Below, in pieces: positions 24,257 to 31,769 of a DNA stretch of 64,000 nt; positions within the stretch are counted from its first letter, which is position 1; each line of letters begins with the position of its first letter. Source of the DNA: Carboxylicivirga fragile (lineage in GTDB: Bacteria; Bacteroidota; Bacteroidia; Bacteroidales; Marinilabiliaceae); assembly GCA_025499625.1 (NCBI GenBank), contig JAFMVD010000014.1, positions 1 through 64,000 of the forward strand, written 5' to 3'. Under the pieces are notes generated by a model. The model saw only the letters and a program-made list of their open reading frames with translations, had not been told where the DNA came from and searched no databases. A program made the translations under genes and the position numbers.

Positions 24257-26308
24257 ATGCCCAAATTAACAATTTACATTCTCCTACTGTGTTTATCGTT
24301 TGGTAAACTCGGTGCTAATAATGTTACTCTTGCTCGAGATATAAAGGTTGGTGTTTATCACAACCCACCATTAATCTACACCGATTCACTACAGCAAGCA
24401 AAGGGCATTTTCATTGATATTCTTGAGCGAATAGCAGATAATAATAATTGGCAGCTAAGCTATCAAAACTACCATCTTAAACAAGGTCTGGACGCACTTA
24501 AAAACAATGAAATAGACATACTTCCTGGCATAGCATTTTCCAAAGAAAGAGCTAAGCAGTTCATCTATTCCGATGAAGTAATTTTTACCAACTGGGGTGT
24601 GATCTACAAAAACGAGCATAGTTCAATTCAAAACATCTCTGACATAAATGGCAGTAAAATAGGCCTAGAAAAGGGAGATATTCAAGCGATTGCATTTAGT
24701 CAACTCCTACGCGACTTCAACTTTAACGCCGATATTATATGGTACGATAATTCAGCCGACCTTTTATCGGATTTAATGCAGCATAAAATTGAAGCAGCCG
24801 CCATTAATAAAGTTATTGGCCATTATTATTACGAAAATGAATCGATATTAGAAACTTCTATTCTTTTTAATCCTGTCAACCTACATTTTGTAAGTAACGA
24901 TCCACAGTTGTTGAGTGACATTGACCTTGGCGTACTCAAACTTCAAAGCGAAACGCCCGAATTATATAAAAGTATAATTGATCAATGGCTAGTAACCAAC
25001 CCGACCAAAGTTATACCCACTTGGCTAAAAATTGCCATAATAACACTAACTATAAGTATTCTAATTCTTGCTTTCACTCTGTTTATTTTGAAAAAAATCA
25101 TTAATAAGCAGGATAAGAATTTGAAAGAGGAATACAAACAAAAATTGCTCAATAAAAAGCTGATAGACCGTTTAGAAATAGAAAAGGCTTTAATTTTAAA
25201 CAGCATTGATGATCAGGTTGTTTTTATTGATCCAAATTATAGAATATTATGGGCCAATGCTGCCTTTAAAAATCGTCAATCAGTTCCATTTGAAAAGCTT
25301 GTCGGTGAAAAATGCCATAAAGCCGCTTTCAAAAACAACGAACCTTGCTCCTTTTGTCAATATGAAAACAGTTTATTATCAAAACAAACTGAAACATATG
25401 AGCATTATAACGAGAGTTCGAAAAATTATTTTTCTACAAAAACAAGCCCGGTATACGATTCTGAGGATGTGCCCATTGGTTTTGTAAAAGTGATTACGGA
25501 CATTACTGATAAGAAAAGAAATGAGTGGGAACTAATTGAAGCCAAAGAAAAAGCAGAAGAATCAGACCTACTTAAGTCCACTTTTTTGGCAAACATGTCG
25601 CATGAAATACGCACACCAATGAATGCCATCATTGGTTTCTCTGAACTACTCGATGATAATACAATTACAGAAGATGAAAAAAGCAGTTACGTCAACATTA
25701 TACAGAGTAATGGTCAACAACTTCTAAAACTCATCTCCGACATTTTAGTATTCTCGCAACTTGAGTCGGGACATCTCGAATTGCAATACTCCACCATTAA
25801 TGTCGCAGAATTTCTGCAAGAAATATATCAGCAATTTAAAACGGAAAAAGATAAACTTAACAATCTTCAACTATCCATCGATCTTGATATAAATCAGATT
25901 GACACCAACTTAAGCATTGAAACTGATGCTATCCGACTTAAGCAAATATTATTCAATCTGTTGACCAATGCTCTTAAATTTACAAAAGAAGGTAAAATAT
26001 TAATTAAAGCTAAAACTAAGAACGACCTCTTACTTCTTTCAGTAAGCGATACTGGCATCGGTATTCCTGACGATCAACTTAAAAATATATTCCGCCGTTT
26101 TTCTCAGGTAGAAAATAACCAAATGAAAAAAGCAGCTGGTTCCGGACTTGGATTAAGCATTACCAAGGAACTGATACATCTACTCGGTGGAAGTATTGAA
26201 GTAAGCACAAAACTAAACTACGGCAGTAAATTTTCAGTGATTCATCCATTACATTCTAAGAGTGATTTTCGATTAGAAACTGCATTAACTGAAGTTAGCT
26301 CAAACTAA
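24257..26308 (+). CDS. Sensor histidine kinase with periplasmic SBP_bac_3 domain and PAS
   Basis: 683 residues. The order is: signal peptide (1-20); a solute-binding family 3 domain (about 28-245, VGVYHNPPLIYTD, GIFIDILERIA, DILPGIAFSKER); a transmembrane helix (about 255-275); coiled linker; a PAS-like domain with clustered Cys (GEKCHKAAFKNNEPCSFCQ, about 345-365); HisKA with MSHEIRTPMNAI (phospho-acceptor His); and a HATPase domain (NLLTNALKFT, DTGIGIP, GSGLGLSI). It resembles BvgS/EvgS-type sensors but lacks receiver and HPt domains. The four-Cys PAS motif could hold a metal or redox centre. No response regulator gene is adjacent, so it is an orphan kinase here. Confidence 0.9.
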   Translation: MPKLTIYILLLCLSFGKLGANNVTLARDIKVGVYHNPPLIYTDSLQQAKGIFIDILERIADNNNWQLSYQNYHLKQGLDALKNNEIDILPGIAFSKERAKQFIYSDEVIFTNWGVIYKNEHSSIQNISDINGSKIGLEKGDIQAIAFSQLLRDFNFNADIIWYDNSADLLSDLMQHKIEAAAINKVIGHYYYENESILETSILFNPVNLHFVSNDPQLLSDIDLGVLKLQSETPELYKSIIDQWLVTNPTKVIPTWLKIAIITLTISILILAFTLFILKKIINKQDKNLKEEYKQKLLNKKLIDRLEIEKALILNSIDDQVVFIDPNYRILWANAAFKNRQSVPFEKLVGEKCHKAAFKNNEPCSFCQYENSLLSKQTETYEHYNESSKNYFSTKTSPVYDSEDVPIGFVKVITDITDKKRNEWELIEAKEKAEESDLLKSTFLANMSHEIRTPMNAIIGFSELLDDNTITEDEKSSYVNIIQSNGQQLLKLISDILVFSQLESGHLELQYSTINVAEFLQEIYQQFKTEKDKLNNLQLSIDLDINQIDTNLSIETDAIRLKQILFNLLTNALKFTKEGKILIKAKTKNDLLLLSVSDTGIGIPDDQLKNIFRRFSQVENNQMKKAAGSGLGLSITKELIHLLGGSIEVSTKLNYGSKFSVIHPLHSKSDFRLETALTEVSSN

Positions 26309-26425: not shown

Positions 26426-26456
26426 TTTGGTATACTGAAATTAATCTCTACATTTG
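26426..26456 (+). promoter_or_regulatory. Promoter of the Phe/Tyr operon leader
   Basis: A -33 TTTG (26426-26429) and a -7 TACATTTG (26449-26456) are separated by 19 bp, the textbook Bacteroidota promoter. Transcription should begin near 26462, leaving a very short 5' end before the leader peptide ATG at 26476. Confidence 0.85.
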
Positions 26457-26475
26457 TAGCACAAAATAGAAGAAA

Positions 26476-26529
26476 ATGGTCCACGTATATTTTTATAACT
26501 TTTATTATTTCTTTTTTAGCACAGACTAA
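26476..26529 (+). CDS. Phe/Tyr-rich leader peptide of the aromatic amino acid operon
   Basis: A 17-residue frame, MVHVYFYNFYYFFFSTD, contains five Phe and four Tyr, nine of ten consecutive residues from 5 to 14 being aromatic. It begins 19 bp after a strong -7 box and ends (TAA 26527-26529) 2 bp before the antiterminator segment of the attenuator. By analogy with PheL/TrpL of enterobacteria, ribosome stalling at Phe or Tyr codons when the charged tRNAs are scarce should switch downstream RNA folding. The peptide itself is probably without other function. It precedes the prephenate dehydratase, aminotransferase, DAHP synthase-mutase and prephenate dehydrogenase genes, exactly the pathway for Phe and Tyr. 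Confidence 0.9.
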   Translation: MVHVYFYNFYYFFFSTD

Positions 26530-26530
26530 A

Positions 26531-26604
26531 GAGGTGGGCTCGTTATGAAAAAATAATCACATACATAATATTTAAAACCCGCCTCGTAAGGCGGGTTTTT
26601 TTTT
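26531..26604 (+). terminator. Transcription attenuator: antiterminator segment and terminator
   Basis: The terminator is an 11-bp stem (26574-26584 with 26589-26599, loop CGTA) running into nine T residues (26596-26604). Its 5' arm core CCCGCCTC (26578-26585) can instead pair along all 8 bases (one U-G) with GAGGTGGG at 26531-26538, directly behind the leader stop codon. A ribosome at the stop codon would cover that segment and allow termination; a ribosome stalled earlier, on the Phe/Tyr codons, leaves it free and blocks the terminator. A weak 5-bp pairing of 26480-26484 with 26534-26538 could be the protector helix. Confidence 0.88.
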
Positions 26605-26623
26605 ACATCACATTTTGCAAAAC

Positions 26624-27502
26624 ATGAAACAAGCGAAAAAAATAGCCATACAAGGTTGGCCAGGAGCAAACCACGAAATTGCAGCCAAGGCCTATTTCGA
26701 GGATGATAAACTTGAGATAGTGCCATGCCTTACCTTTCCTGAGCTATTTCAAACTTTGAAAAACGACCGATCTATCTATGGCATTATTGCTATTGAAAAC
26801 ACGCTTGTTGGAAGTTTGCTTCCTAACTACACAATGCTCAAGGATAGCGATTTGATGATAATTGGAGAATACAAACTTCGTATCAAACATCAATTAATGG
26901 CTTTACCGGGGCAAACTATGGATGACATTAAAGAAGTGCATTCTCACCCTATGGCTTTGGCGCAATGCGAAGTCTTCTTTAAAGATTACCCACACATCAA
27001 ATTGATAGCTTCAGAAGATACAGCGCTAAGCGCCAAGTTAATTGCCGATGAAAAATTGGAAGGTGTTGGTGCTATTGCTTCTGAATTGGCAGCTAATATG
27101 TATAAACTCAACATACTAGCGGCAGGCATAGAAACTAACAAAAAGAATTTCACTCGATTTTTAGTAATTACTGATAAGGCTTTAACCGAAACGGATGAAT
27201 TACTTGAACAAAACAGAATCAATAAATCGTCATTGGTTTTTTCCTTACCGCACGAGGAAGGTAGCCTATCTAAAATATTGACCATACTTAATTTCTATTC
27301 CATCAACCTTACCAAGATACAATCATTACCAATTGTTGGGCACGAGTGGGAATATCTTTTTTATGTAGATGTGACTTTCACGGACTATAAGCGCTATCTG
27401 CAATCGTTAGATGCCATTCGTCCACTTTGTCAAAAACTGAAAACACTTGGTGAGTACGAAAAAGGAAAACAATCGTACCCAGCTCAAAACGGTCAAAACT
27501 AA
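26624..27502 (+). CDS. pheA: Prephenate dehydratase (ACT-domain)
   Basis: 292 residues from the ATG at 26624; a TTG at 26615 lies closer to the terminator and is less likely. The catalytic domain (1-190) contains AIENTLVGSL and the NFTRFLV motif with the essential Thr-Arg-Phe. The C-terminal ACT domain has GSLSKILTIL in place of GALxxxL and KIQSLP in place of the ESRP Phe-binding motif. It converts prephenate to phenylpyruvate. The chorismate mutase domain found in enterobacterial PheA is absent and is instead fused to the DAHP synthase two genes downstream. First structural gene of the attenuated operon. Confidence 0.92.
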   Translation: MKQAKKIAIQGWPGANHEIAAKAYFEDDKLEIVPCLTFPELFQTLKNDRSIYGIIAIENTLVGSLLPNYTMLKDSDLMIIGEYKLRIKHQLMALPGQTMDDIKEVHSHPMALAQCEVFFKDYPHIKLIASEDTALSAKLIADEKLEGVGAIASELAANMYKLNILAAGIETNKKNFTRFLVITDKALTETDELLEQNRINKSSLVFSLPHEEGSLSKILTILNFYSINLTKIQSLPIVGHEWEYLFYVDVTFTDYKRYLQSLDAIRPLCQKLKTLGEYEKGKQSYPAQNGQN

Positions 27503-27506
27503 AACC

Positions 27507-28676
27507 ATGAATAATATAAAAGCCGCCAATAGAATCAACCAGATTGAAGAATACTACTTTTCAATCAAGCTTAAAGAATTGGACAAATTACGTAAGCAAG
27601 GTAAGTCAATCATTAATCTAGGTATTGGTAATCCTGATATGGCACCAGCACCCAATGTTCTTGCCCAACTTAACGCACAAAGTGCTGACAAGAATAACCA
27701 TGGCTACCAGAGCTACGTTGGCATTCCCGAATTACGCGAAGCCATGAGCAATTGGTACAGTAGGTTTTACGATGTTGATATTGATGCTAGTTCTGAAATT
27801 CTTCCATTAATGGGATCGAAAGAAGGAATTATGCACATTACAATGGCGTTTCTAAATCCTGGAGATAGTGTTTTGGTTCCAAATCCGGGCTACCCAACCT
27901 ATGCTTCAGCAAGTAAAATAGCAGAGGCCAAACTAATATCGTACGACCTGGATGAGAACAACGCTTGGCTTCCAAATTTAAATGAACTAGAACAACTAGA
28001 CCTAAGTAAGGTAAAACTAATGTGGATTAACTATCCAAATATGCCGACTGGATCGAATGCGGATAGAGATTTTTTCAAGCAAATAATTGCATTTGGTAAG
28101 AAGCATAACATCGTTATCTGTAACGACAACCCATACAGCTTCATCCTGAACGATTCGCCCCAGAGCATCATGAACATAGAAGGTGCAAAAGACATCGCAA
28201 TTGAGCTTAACTCTTTAAGTAAATCGCATAACATGGCTGGTTGGCGAGTTGGAATGGCCATATCTAATCCAACATTCATACAATATATCCTGAGAGTGAA
28301 AAGCAATATGGATTCGGGTATGTTTAAGCCACTGCAGCTAGCAGCTGTTGAGGCGCTTAGTCTTGAACAAGACTGGTACGATAGTATTAATAAAGAATAC
28401 CTACAAAGAAGAGCATTGGTACATGATATCATGGATCTTCTTGAATGTAAATACGACACCTCTCAATCAGGAATGTTTGTTTGGGCTAAAATCCCATCTC
28501 AATATTCCGATAGTGGATCCTTATCTGACAAAATACTATATGGATGTGATGTTTTTATTACGCCTGGTTTCATATTTGGAGGTAAAGGTCAACAATACAT
28601 TCGCATAAGTCTTTGCACAAAGCAAGAAACATTGATTGAAGCAAAACAAAGAATCGAAAAATTATCAAAACAATAA
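27507..28676 (+). CDS. Class I/II aminotransferase of the Phe/Tyr operon
   Basis: 389 residues from the ATG at 27507, 4 bp after the pheA stop codon. It has fold-type I PLP motifs: GNPDMAPAP, NNHGYQSYVGIPELREA, PNPGYPTY, the Asn/Asp/Tyr cofactor contacts in NYPNMPTGS and CNDNPYSFI, the Schiff-base Lys in NSLSKSHNMAGWRVG, and C-terminal Arg in QYIRISLC. From its location it most likely transaminates phenylpyruvate and 4-hydroxyphenylpyruvate to Phe and Tyr (or acts on prephenate). By motif alone it could equally be an LL-diaminopimelate or aspartate-type aminotransferase; the operon context favours the aromatic role. Confidence 0.88.
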   Translation: MNNIKAANRINQIEEYYFSIKLKELDKLRKQGKSIINLGIGNPDMAPAPNVLAQLNAQSADKNNHGYQSYVGIPELREAMSNWYSRFYDVDIDASSEILPLMGSKEGIMHITMAFLNPGDSVLVPNPGYPTYASASKIAEAKLISYDLDENNAWLPNLNELEQLDLSKVKLMWINYPNMPTGSNADRDFFKQIIAFGKKHNIVICNDNPYSFILNDSPQSIMNIEGAKDIAIELNSLSKSHNMAGWRVGMAISNPTFIQYILRVKSNMDSGMFKPLQLAAVEALSLEQDWYDSINKEYLQRRALVHDIMDLLECKYDTSQSGMFVWAKIPSQYSDSGSLSDKILYGCDVFITPGFIFGGKGQQYIRISLCTKQETLIEAKQRIEKLSKQ

Positions 28677-28678
28677 CC

Positions 28679-29776
28679 ATGGATCACAAACTTGATTTAT
28701 TACCGCTAGAGTTACCAGGACTTAAACTGGAGAGACCTATTTTAATTGCTGGACCTTGTAGTGCCGAAACAGAAGAGCAAGTGCTTGAAACAGCACGCTT
28801 ATTGTCTGCTCAAGGTGTAAAAATATTCCGTGCCGGAATATGGAAACCACGCACACGCCCTGGTGCTTTCGAAGGCGTTGGAACCCTTGGTCTGCCTTGG
28901 CTTAAAAAAGTAAAGGAAGAAACAGGCATGTTCATTAGTGTTGAAGTAGCCACAGCCCATCACGTATATGAAGCTCTAAAATTTGGAGTTGACATGTTAT
29001 GGATCGGTGCCCGTACCACTGCTAACCCATTTGCTGTTCAAGAAGTAGCCGATGCTCTAGCTGGAAGTGATGTGCCGGTATTGGTAAAGAATCCCGTTAA
29101 TCCCGATTTGGATTTATGGATAGGAGCCATTGAGCGCGTAAATCGTGCTGGTATCAAACGAATTGGCGCCATCCATAGAGGTTTTAGTACATACGACAAA
29201 ACTGAATTCAGAAACAACCCGGAATGGCAAATTCCAATTGAATTGCGTAGAAGAGTTCCTAATTTACCAATCATCACCGATCCTAGTCACATTTCAGGGA
29301 AAAGCGAAATGATTGCAGATGTTTCTCAGGAAGCAATGGATCTTAACTTTGACGGATTAATTATTGAATCGCACATTTGCCCTGAAAAAGCATGGAGTGA
29401 TGCGAGCCAACAGGTAACACCTGATCACCTGTCAGACATAATGGGTAACCTTGTAGTACGTCAGTCAGCAATTGGTGATCGTCCGCGTGTTACTTTAGAT
29501 GAATTGCGTAAGAAAATTGACTTATTGGATAAGCAATTATTAGAAACATTGAGTTCAAGAATGAAAATTTCGGAAGCAATTGGTAAATATAAGTTTGACA
29601 ACAATATTACCATTCTTCAAACGCGTCGTTACGATGAAATCATGAATAAACGCAAAGAACAGGCTGAAGAATCGAAATTAAATCCTGAATTTGTGATTCG
29701 TGTTTTTGAGCATGTGCACGAAGAGTCGATTAACCGACAGAATAAAATTATGAATAAAGAATTGGCAAAAGACTAA
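28679..29776 (+). CDS. DAHP synthase-chorismate mutase fusion
   Basis: 365 residues. Residues 1-260 are a DAHP synthase of the AroG/KdsA-like TIM-barrel type: GPCSAET, FRAGIWKPRTRPGAFEG, KNPVNPD, IHRGFS, TDPSHISG and ESHICPEKAWSDA. Residues about 275-355 are an AroQ-type chorismate mutase (LDELRKKIDLLDKQLLETLSSRMKIS, with Arg and Lys of the active site). It thus catalyses the first step of the shikimate pathway and the chorismate-to-prephenate step; the mutase domain may also provide feedback control by prephenate, as in other such fusions. Starts 2 bp after the aminotransferase stop codon. Confidence 0.93.
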   Translation: MDHKLDLLPLELPGLKLERPILIAGPCSAETEEQVLETARLLSAQGVKIFRAGIWKPRTRPGAFEGVGTLGLPWLKKVKEETGMFISVEVATAHHVYEALKFGVDMLWIGARTTANPFAVQEVADALAGSDVPVLVKNPVNPDLDLWIGAIERVNRAGIKRIGAIHRGFSTYDKTEFRNNPEWQIPIELRRRVPNLPIITDPSHISGKSEMIADVSQEAMDLNFDGLIIESHICPEKAWSDASQQVTPDHLSDIMGNLVVRQSAIGDRPRVTLDELRKKIDLLDKQLLETLSSRMKISEAIGKYKFDNNITILQTRRYDEIMNKRKEQAEESKLNPEFVIRVFEHVHEESINRQNKIMNKELAKD

Positions 29777-29839: not shown

Positions 29840-30616
29840 ATGAAAATTTGTATACTAGGCGCTGGAAAAATGGGAACTTGGCTAACCGATGCCTTATGCC
29901 TCGAACATGAAGTAGCTATCTTTGATCACGACATCAGCAAGCTGCGTTATGTTTTTAATACCCAACGCCTAACTAAGTTAGATGAAATTAGTGAATTTGC
30001 TCCTGAAATTCTTATCAATGCAGTTAGTCTAAAATACACACTTGATGCTTTTAAGGAGGTGCTACCCTACTTGCCAAAAGACTGTATATTGTCCGACATT
30101 GCTTCTGTAAAAACAGGCTTCCAAGAGTTTTATGAATCAAGTGGATGCCGCTACGTTTCGACCCACCCCATGTTTGGTCCAACCTTTGCCAACCTGAAGG
30201 ACTTAAGCATGCACCACGCCATTATCATCACACAAAGTGATCATCTTGGGAAAGCTTTCTTTAAAGATTTTTTCGCTTCACTTGGTTTAAATATACACGA
30301 CTATAGTTTTGATGCCCATGATGAAACTATTGCCTACTCATTGTCAATACCATTCTCATCTTCATTGGTATTTGCCGCCTGCATGAAACATCAGAAAGCA
30401 CCTGGAACAACGTTCAACAAACACATGAATATTGCCAAAGGTTTATTATCCGAAGAAGATCATCTGCTAACCGAAATTCTTTTCAATCCATTTACCTATG
30501 AGCAGGTTGAAAATATTCGCTTTCAGCTAAAACACCTTCTTTCCTTAATAAAAGAAAAGGACAGTGTAGGGATGCAAGCTTTTCTGAATACTGTTCGTGC
30601 AAACATTGAAGAATAG
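29840..30616 (+). CDS. tyrA: Prephenate dehydrogenase
   Basis: 258 residues. The N-terminal Rossmann motif is ILGAGKMGTWL with an acidic residue at the end of strand two (IFDHD), favouring NAD. Later motifs match the prephenate/arogenate dehydrogenase fold: LSDIASVKTGF, STHPMFGPTFANL and an all-alpha C-terminal domain. It makes 4-hydroxyphenylpyruvate for tyrosine. It lacks ACT and chorismate mutase domains; the mutase is supplied by the preceding fusion. Last gene of the attenuated Phe/Tyr operon, followed by hairpin repeat copy A. Confidence 0.9.
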   Translation: MKICILGAGKMGTWLTDALCLEHEVAIFDHDISKLRYVFNTQRLTKLDEISEFAPEILINAVSLKYTLDAFKEVLPYLPKDCILSDIASVKTGFQEFYESSGCRYVSTHPMFGPTFANLKDLSMHHAIIITQSDHLGKAFFKDFFASLGLNIHDYSFDAHDETIAYSLSIPFSSSLVFAACMKHQKAPGTTFNKHMNIAKGLLSEEDHLLTEILFNPFTYEQVENIRFQLKHLLSLIKEKDSVGMQAFLNTVRANIEE

Positions 30617-30632
30617 TTAGTAAACTACTTAT

Positions 30633-30674
30633 AGATGACATCTTTATTTTATCCAAAGAAAAAAGATGTCATCT
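30633..30674. repeat. Hairpin repeat copy A (GATGACATCTTT/AAAGATGTCATC)
   Basis: A perfect 13-bp inverted repeat (30633-30645 with 30662-30674) with a 16-base loop lies just after tyrA. No T tract follows on the plus strand. The same stem recurs at 37997-38038 and, with a compensated base pair, at 45810-45852. Confidence 0.8.
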
Positions 30675-30693
30675 GTAGAAGAATGTAATTCCC

Positions 30694-30701
30694 TATCTTC
30701 G
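30694..30701 (+). promoter_or_regulatory. Promoter -7 box TATCTTCG for mnmA
   Basis: A one-mismatch TAnnTTTG box 18 bp before the ATG at 30720; its presence also argues against the earlier alternative start at 30666. Confidence 0.45.
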
Positions 30702-30719
30702 CCAAATATCAGAATAGCA

Positions 30720-31769
30720 ATGGCAGAAAATAAAAAGGTGATTTTAGGAATGAGTGGCGGCATGGATAGTTCAATGGCTGCCGTGCTATTATTACAAAAT
30801 GGATATGAGGTGATTGGCGCCACCTTACAAACACATACTGGGGAATCAGATCGGCATATTGTTGAAGCGAAAGCATTGGCCTCAAAACTAAACATTGAAC
30901 ACCATCTGATAGATTGCCGACAAGATTTTAAAGAAACCGTCATTGCTTATTTTGCCAACGAATACATTGAAGGTCGCACACCTAACCCATGTGTTTATTG
31001 CAACGAAACCATAAAGTGGAAGTACCTGCTTGAGTTAGCCAAGCAACTACAATGCGCTCACATAGCCACGGGTCACTATGTTCGGGTCAAAAAGCAAAAT
31101 GATTATTACTATATCCAAAAAGGGCTTGATCCAGCTAAAGATCAGTCTTATTTCCTCTGGAACCTTAGTCAGAAAGTGCTAAGCAGAGCACTTTTTCCTT
31201 TGGGGCATTTGCACAAACGTGAGGTACGTGAACTGGCTGAAAATTTGGGATACAAGCAAATAGCCGACAAAAAAGAAAGCATGGGTGTCTGTTTTCTTTC
31301 CGGAACAGACTATCGTGATTATCTGAAAACAATATTACCAACTGACCATCATGCATTTGCAAATGGTCCTATTGTTGACGAAAACAATCAAGTACTTGGG
31401 CAGCACGATGGCTACCCATTTTATACCATTGGCCAACGTAGAGGAATTGAAGGAGTAGTTAAAGGGAAGTGCGTTATAGCTATCGATCCAAAAAACAGAA
31501 CCCTTGTTAGTGGCGATCGAAATCAACTCTATACTGATAGCATTCTACTAGGCAACTTCAAGCTTACGGCTAATCAACAACTTTGGATGAACAGAGAAGT
31601 ATTCATTCGAATTCGTGGACTTGACAGTGTCCCGGGTTATGTTGGTCACATATCAATTAAAAATGATAAACTAAAGGTACAATTTAATGAAGATGTTTGG
31701 GCCATTACCCCAGGACAATCCATTGTATTTTATCAGGATGATTTATTAATAGGCGGTGGAATAGTTTAG
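30720..31769 (+). CDS. mnmA: tRNA-specific 2-thiouridylase MnmA
   Basis: 349 residues from ATG 30720; an upstream in-frame start at 30666 lies inside the hairpin repeat and is rejected. It has the PP-loop ATP pyrophosphatase motif GMSGGMDSSMA, the first catalytic Cys in NPCVYCNE, TGHYVR, KDQSYFLW and the second Cys in MGVCFLSG, then the C-terminal beta-barrel (YTIGQRRG). It introduces sulfur at U34 of Lys, Glu and Gln tRNAs. Members of this phylum often carry two MnmA paralogues; this may be one of them. Confidence 0.92.
   Translation: MAENKKVILGMSGGMDSSMAAVLLLQNGYEVIGATLQTHTGESDRHIVEAKALASKLNIEHHLIDCRQDFKETVIAYFANEYIEGRTPNPCVYCNETIKWKYLLELAKQLQCAHIATGHYVRVKKQNDYYYIQKGLDPAKDQSYFLWNLSQKVLSRALFPLGHLHKREVRELAENLGYKQIADKKESMGVCFLSGTDYRDYLKTILPTDHHAFANGPIVDENNQVLGQHDGYPFYTIGQRRGIEGVVKGKCVIAIDPKNRTLVSGDRNQLYTDSILLGNFKLTANQQLWMNREVFIRIRGLDSVPGYVGHISIKNDKLKVQFNEDVWAITPGQSIVFYQDDLLIGGGIV

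Follow-up and report, generated by a model that had tools for sequence, protein, structure and literature searches.

Organization of the Phe/Tyr operon and its 5' region

Four genes for phenylalanine and tyrosine synthesis, preceded by a putative attenuator, lie on the forward strand of the window, i.e. the whole 64,000-nt stretch of Carboxylicivirga fragile DNA analysed here (Table 1). The assignment of the four genes to Phe and Tyr synthesis, made in the original prediction, is in line with the domain searches, in which the prephenate dehydratase, Aminotran_1_2, DAHP_synth_1 plus CM_2 and PDH_N matches all exceeded their Pfam cut-offs. For the tyrA-like gene, the top NCBIfam prephenate dehydrogenase model scored 69.8 of 310 bits, under cut-off. 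Among the matches listed, an uncultured Carboxylicivirga (89%) comes closest by PheA of the named relatives, and the gene order PheA-aminotransferase-DAHPS/CM-TyrA recurs in 59 of 80 named loci, in two of which MnmA follows TyrA. An mnmA gene (tRNA 2-thiouridine synthase) is also found in the window at 30666-31769, 49 bp 3' of the tyrA-like gene, and was detected inside the locus in just 2 of the 80 named loci among the matches listed.

Direct reading of the sequence revealed the promoter boxes, the short Phe/Tyr-rich frame coding MVHVYFYNFYYFFFSTD, and the 11-bp terminator with nine T residues, all where they had been predicted. The claimed complementarity between the 8-base segment following the stop codon, GAGGTGGG, and the segment CCCGCCTC was likewise confirmed, with one G-U pair. 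The leader contains five Phe and four Tyr among its 17 residues, with an F/Y/W density of 9 per 12 residues. The terminator stem consists of AAAACCCGCCT (26574-26584) and AGGCGGGTTTT (26589-26599) around a CGTA loop, with the T-run at 26596-26604. The pheA ATG is 19 nt past the end of the T-run, leaving scant space for a promoter 3' of the terminator. In the MFE fold of the window element, the control codons at 26505-26514 pair with 26528-26537, spanning strand 2.

Table 1. Predicted features of the attenuator region and the genes of the Phe/Tyr operon, with the basis for each.
Feature	Coordinates	Strand	Basis
Bacteroidota-type promoter, TTTG + TACATTTG	26426-26456	+	Sequence; boxes 26426-26429 and 26449-26456, 19 bp between
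Leader frame MVHVYFYNFYYFFFSTD, 17 codons	26476-26529	+	ATG 26476, TAA 26527-26529; control codons Phe/Tyr 26488-26517
Strand 1 (protector)	26490-26514	+	26505-26514:26528-26537 and 26490-26499:26542-26551, MFE fold of 26462-26604
Strand 2 GAGGTGGG, antiterminator 5' half	26531-26538	+	Sequence, shuffle test, covariation
Strand 3 CCCGCCTC, common to antiterminator and terminator	26578-26585	+	Sequence, covariation
Intrinsic terminator, 11-bp stem, 4-nt loop, nine T	26574-26604	+	Sequence, covariation, MFE fold
pheA, prephenate dehydratase	26624-27502	+	PF00800, 187 bits (cut-off 25.2)
Class I/II aminotransferase	27507-28676	+	PF00155 (Aminotran_1_2), over Pfam cut-off
DAHP synthase fused to chorismate mutase	28679-29776	+	PF00793 (DAHP_synth_1) and PF01817 (CM_2), over Pfam cut-offs
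tyrA-like prephenate dehydrogenase	29840-30616	+	PF02153 (PDH_N), 38.1 bits (cut-off 26.5)

Conservation of the leader upstream of pheA

PheA was found in 73 of 100 relatives, from which 70 of 75 places were taken in (left out: G027, G052, G065:C37 and both of G042). It was also found in 258 of 296 genomes of a phylum draw, from which 69 loci were examined, with better-scoring loci favoured; a further 80 named PheA loci came from among the matches listed. Leaders were scored by the densest F/Y/W run per 12 residues in any frame of 6-45 codons within 420 nt 5' of pheA, with a threshold of at least 7. The analysis covered 212 loci; outside it lie L113, L121, L152, L161 and L172, with under 420 nt upstream, while L015 and L019 were dropped for truncated upstream sequence and L001 because its DNA is identical to that of L002.

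An F/Y-rich leader scoring at least 7 precedes pheA in 180 of the 212 loci. The Phe/Tyr-rich frame in close relatives, set beforehand as a test of the original prediction, is kept in 66 of 68 relatives, the remaining two scoring 6. The corresponding counts are 69 of 75 for the named loci among the matches listed and, within the phylum draw, 40 of 42 where the genome belongs to the same order or class and 5 of 27 where it belongs to another class; the shared class is taken to be Bacteroidia, by inference from the nearest PheA relative. Since leaders were selected by F/Y/W density, their aromatic richness is partly built in, and the 420 nt 5' of other ORFs (at least 150 codons) in the 80 named loci listed provide the control: a score of at least 7 was reached by 8 of 665 such regions, and a score of 9 by none. 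Merging of 10 of the 180 leaders as DNA-identical gave 170 distinct leaders.

Leaders occur in named Bacteroides and Prevotella loci. Six named loci among the matches listed have no leader in place, and of these L144, L149, L166 and L179 show PheA without the other operon genes. L153 carries an F/Y-rich frame about 1.1 kb upstream, away from the usual place; in L163 the operon is present and no leader was found in the 420 nt scored. L184 and L189 likewise gave no leader upstream of pheA. Outside the class, the short frames 5' of pheA in L197, L203, L204, L207 and L216 share a W-[RN]-DESNF tail, which is possibly the end of an upstream gene and not a Phe/Tyr leader.

The motif TAnnTTTG, like the TTTG box, belongs to what we take to be the promoter type of the Bacteroidota phylum. 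It was found within 110 nt 5' of 142 of 166 leaders, compared with 12.9 expected from mononucleotide shuffles, and its end lies a median of 27 nt from the leader start codon. A TTG at the -33 spacing accompanies it in 108 leaders. Its presence upstream of most leaders suggests that leader, terminator and operon are probably transcribed from one shared promoter, a requirement of attenuation.

Conserved alternative folds

The rule used to identify terminators was passed by 161 of the 170 leaders (outside: L050, L072, L073, L122, L126, L140, L143, L145 and L177). In 156 of the 161, strands 2 and 3 paired more stably than in 100 dinucleotide shuffles (p ≤ 0.05), and for the window none of 100 shuffles was equally stable. 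Mean 2:3 energies were -19.7 kcal/mol for native strands, -13.1 kcal/mol for strands swapped between species and -9.8 kcal/mol for shuffled strands. Compared with strand 2 of 60 other leaders, the native pairing reached p ≤ 0.05 in 87 of 161, and a lower figure than in the shuffle test is expected because relatives have strands in common. A duplex search (65 of 67 significant) took the place of a helix search limited to the terminator arm (47 of 67), which missed pairs in the loop and 5' of the stem.

Covariation was analysed in an alignment of 41 of 43 rows, without L040 and L047, and revealed the covarying alternative helix that had been proposed for relatives. In the antiterminator, two-sided changes (24 cells) occur at four of eight pairs, two of these four with a single cell each, and none of 500 shuffles reached any of five measures. 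In the terminator, 7 of 11 pairs are two-sided (44 cells); four of the measures were reached by 0 or 1 of 500 shuffles, and the pair-type count by 64 of 500. Slid controls were well lower for both helices. The alignment rows are related, so these covariation counts are not probabilities; and the figure of 93.9% paired antiterminator cells is slightly flattered, L047 having failed the 2:3 test and L040 the arm-only test.

Pairing of strand 1 with strand 2 was stronger than in codon-shuffled leaders at p ≤ 0.05 in 89 of 161 (mean -19.5 versus -14.1); an earlier run gave 18 of 67 leaders, and in the window this pairing is not significant (p 0.32). The distance from the last control codon to the start of strand 2 has a median of 10 nt, with quartiles of 8 and 12. 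A stalled ribosome, given the size of its footprint, would reach to about this point.

Ribosome position and terminator formation in a fold model

The free RNA was folded at the decision point, with polymerase in the T-run at the seventh T and a 9-nt hybrid. Over the 161 leaders, the terminator had a mean probability of 0.22 when the ribosome sat on the last control codon, 0.95 when it sat at the stop codon and 0.74 when it was absent. Values under 0.5 were obtained for 128, 3 and 36 leaders, respectively, and with the stalled ribosome 33 remained at or above 0.5 at the chosen setting. Shuffling of the strand-2 region gave a mean of 0.86. The window values were 0.07 for the stalled ribosome, 0.99 for the stop codon and 0.98 for no ribosome. 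When the ribosome was placed codon by codon, positions of low terminator probability fell on the F/Y run across species. For the window, readthrough is favoured from codon 9 (0.49) to codon 15, whereas the terminator still prevails with the ribosome stalled at codons 5-8; as codons 9-15 alone have this effect, the model suggests that F/Y codons 5-7 may serve mainly as a delay.

Across seven settings, the class means ranged from 0.13 to 0.47 for the stalled state, 0.49 to 0.85 for no ribosome and 0.91 to 0.96 for the stop codon, with stalled below stop throughout. The window by itself is more sensitive: advancing polymerase by 1-2 nt, or shortening the hybrid by 1 nt, raises its stalled value from 0.07 to at least 0.95, and moving polymerase back two bases or lengthening the hybrid by 1 nt lowers its no-ribosome value to 0.01 or 0.28. 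The model thus predicts across the 161 leaders that a stall would free strand 2 and that a ribosome at the stop codon would mask it, and for the window alone this prediction hinges on polymerase position. At full-stem equilibrium, the antiterminator fold is the stabler one in 104 of 161 leaders. The window terminator wins in all three states, with a probability of 0.9998 when strand 2 is free, so that switching there would have to be kinetic.

Phe and Tyr codons in the leader

The split between Phe and Tyr played no part in the selection of leaders, which was by the density of F, Y and W together. At least two Phe and at least two Tyr codons are present in 168 of the 170 distinct leaders, whose 4148 residues include 1016 Phe, 667 Tyr and 48 Trp. 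Over 161 leaders, the final eight positions of the run contain on average 4.32 Phe, 2.68 Tyr and 0.19 Trp; Tyr makes up about 73% of the non-Phe residues there, and in 139 of the 161 both Phe and Tyr occur at least twice.

A comparison of reading frames (F+Y of 39% in the leader frame against 16% and 15% in the alternatives) was dropped as circular, because the frames had been chosen by aromatic density, and codon-change counts were used in its place. Forty independent pairs of close leaders differ at 146 codons, of which 51 changes are synonymous, 32 are Phe-Tyr exchanges and 63 are others, so that the exchanges account for 32 of 95 non-synonymous changes. Substitutions at codon positions 1, 2 and 3 number 36, 74 and 82, and the excess at position 2 fits Phe-Tyr exchange. 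Such swapping between close leaders is expected if both are control codons, and the composition and exchanges together point to a leader that would sense both Phe and Tyr. The idea that Tyr codons track the presence of TyrA found no support, Tyr content being undiminished in eight leaders without detectable TyrA at the locus.

Trp was considered as a general third signal and rejected on its low count. Trp does fall inside the effective run of 30 of 161 leaders. A Trp codon after the Phe run (FFW) is seen in the leaders of L017, L018, L021, L030, L033, L042, L044 and L046.

His and Trp leaders in the host genome and its relatives

The host genome also carries a His-codon leader, MLNNFHHHTHHHYLSSR, with a terminator before hisG (L241, G000:C57 near 36541, leader 1329-1382), and a Trp-codon leader, MNNTGWWHHLTLSTKS, with a terminator before a trpE-like gene (L264, G000:C57 near 3727), about 200 nt 5' of the PF04715 match. 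In both, the 5' arm of the terminator pairs with the segment that follows the leader (p 0.015 each, 200 mononucleotide shuffles).

At all 26 hisG loci of relatives there is a His-rich frame, with four or more His in 12 residues, lying about 140-335 nt 5' of the match in 25 of them. The trp analysis took in 23 of 24 strong loci and left out L266 and L271-L276. The best W-bearing frame 5' of the trpE-like gene (PF04715) contains WW in 21 of these 23, one of the 21 (L251) looking accidental, and most relatives examined have WW or WWW leaders before this gene. Taken operon by operon, the leader code thus follows the pathway, with His codons for His, Trp codons for Trp, and Phe plus Tyr codons here. 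Three pathway-matched leaders are therefore present within one Bacteroidales genome.

Proposed mechanism and alternative explanations

We propose that the window element is a ribosome-mediated transcription attenuator of the trp/phe type governing the Phe/Tyr operon, with a probability of about 0.87. The basis of this reading is its anatomy, conservation, covariation and modelled codon/fold geometry, and most of the testable features of such an attenuator are present. Transcription would start a few bases 3' of the promoter, at about 26462, and the ribosome would translate the 17-codon leader. With ample charged tRNA-Phe and tRNA-Tyr, it would proceed to the stop codon and cover strand 2, allowing the 3:4 terminator to form. 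With tRNA-Phe or tRNA-Tyr in short supply, it would dwell on the Phe/Tyr run, where strand 1, which contains the control codons, could not protect strand 2; the free strand 2 would then pair with strand 3 before strand 4 is made, and polymerase would read through. With no ribosome, 1:2 pairing would protect strand 2 and transcription would end. We infer that termination and readthrough occur in this way in cells, that the switch acts kinetically, and that a shortage of either Phe or Tyr would suffice.

Sensing of Phe alone is an unlikely variant, in which the Tyr codons (TAT/TAC) would be tolerated fillers that break T-runs causing polymerase to slip or pause. The excess of Phe over Tyr, a codon run made almost wholly of T and A, and the undiminished Tyr content of the eight leaders without detected TyrA are all in keeping with it. 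However, TTC could break T-runs while keeping Phe. The predominance of Tyr among the non-Phe residues of the last eight positions, the occurrence of at least two of each in most leaders, the frequency of Phe-Tyr exchange among non-synonymous changes, and an operon whose domains indicate synthesis of both amino acids argue for control by both codons.

Three further explanations are less likely still. The hairpin is a sound intrinsic terminator between two same-strand genes, and might serve the upstream histidine-kinase gene, which ends at 26308, or act as a general terminator beside an incidental frame. This is very improbable given that the window leader is separated from the kinase gene by a promoter box, which is also found 5' of most leaders, that leader and terminator accompany pheA in most loci, that 2:3 pairing exceeds shuffles in nearly all, and that among the matches listed the regions upstream of other ORFs so rarely reach the leader threshold. 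We give just as little credence to a working small (membrane) peptide to which the hairpins would be secondary: the hydrophobic aromatic composition is conserved, but what stays constant from leader to leader is the F/Y content, the distance to strand 2 and the complementarity of the helices, whereas residue order and peptide length differ, and the C-terminal part often just covers strand 2. There remains control that is mainly translational, or exerted by a protein or ligand binding the leader region with the ribosome uninvolved. Leader regions are able to host other sensors, but no Rfam family was found at cut-off in the window or the loci scanned, and the codon-to-fold geometry, together with codons matched to the His, Trp and Phe/Tyr pathways, indicates the ribosome, making such a sensor scarcely probable. 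Attenuation remains the preferred reading, translation of the leader being predicted from the conservation of its frame.

A broader proposal, to which we give slightly better than even odds, is that the leader acts as an OR gate. Shortage of charged tRNA-Phe or tRNA-Tyr alone would open a single operon supplying both amino acids as well as the first step of the aromatic pathway. The dual-codon attenuator would be ancestral to the class (taken to be Bacteroidia), where attenuation of His, Trp and Phe/Tyr operons would do the job of the enterobacterial TyrR and TrpR repressors; in lineages with a Trp codon in the effective run (the 30 of 161 leaders), all three aromatics would be read. Bacteroidota have an unusual promoter and weak ribosome-binding signals, and attenuation here therefore probes translation-transcription coupling beyond the classic models.

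Relation to known attenuators

Leader-peptide attenuation is a textbook mechanism. The enterobacterial pheA attenuator lies 5' of prephenate dehydratase and consists of a leader with Phe codons and alternative antiterminator and terminator folds; its leader peptide, PheL, senses Phe only. The window element resembles it in its Phe codons, alternative folds and downstream prephenate dehydratase. Unlike PheL (RF01859), the window leader codes Tyr too and scores under the 55-bit cut-off, and the operon adds DAHP synthase/chorismate mutase and a TyrA-like gene to what enterobacterial pheA offers. The difference from trp/phe-type precedents would be a single leader that responds to both end products of a branched pathway. 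In the E. coli thr and ilv attenuators, too, one leader carries control codons of more than one kind and reads several of its operon's end products; the pair here is Phe plus Tyr, in Bacteroidota. Attenuators in Bacteroidetes/Chlorobi are reportedly mentioned in an older survey.

No Rfam family was found at cut-off in the window, in eight Bacteroidales loci or in 13 further loci. The highest sub-threshold score was that of RF01859 Phe_leader, at 36.6 bits (E 9.7e-5) over the full model length, and Leu_leader, at 31.1 bits, had a slightly better E of 8.8e-5. The element could be annotated straight away.

As far as the open-licence literature was searched, the mixed Phe/Tyr code, its class-wide spread and the combined fold and codon evidence are new, and no Phe/Tyr leader was found there by title. 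The mechanism class of attenuation and a structured pheA 5' element in Flavobacteriaceae are already known. The latter was described in 2021 before pheA of Flavobacterium psychrophilum and is conserved in that family (PMC9723704); in section 19 of that paper, the pheA and hisG 5' elements are without Rfam hits, and 'strong clues' of leader-peptide attenuation are noted for amino-acid operons generally. The element concerns the same gene and phylum as ours, and is described in that section without codons, Tyr or an alternative-fold test for pheA. The Bacteroid-trp motif, RF01692, is given as a candidate cis-regulatory RNA of Bacteroidetes (PMC2864571); it belongs to an aromatic pathway by name and gave no hit at cut-off in the window or in the 13 further loci, trp included. 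For Bacteroides thetaiotaomicron, sORFs in 5' UTRs have been called 'reminiscent of leader peptides', BT_4401 being the example named in the excerpt consulted, which makes no reference to the aromatic operon (PMC7366714). These sORFs suggest leader-peptide attenuation in Bacteroidales.
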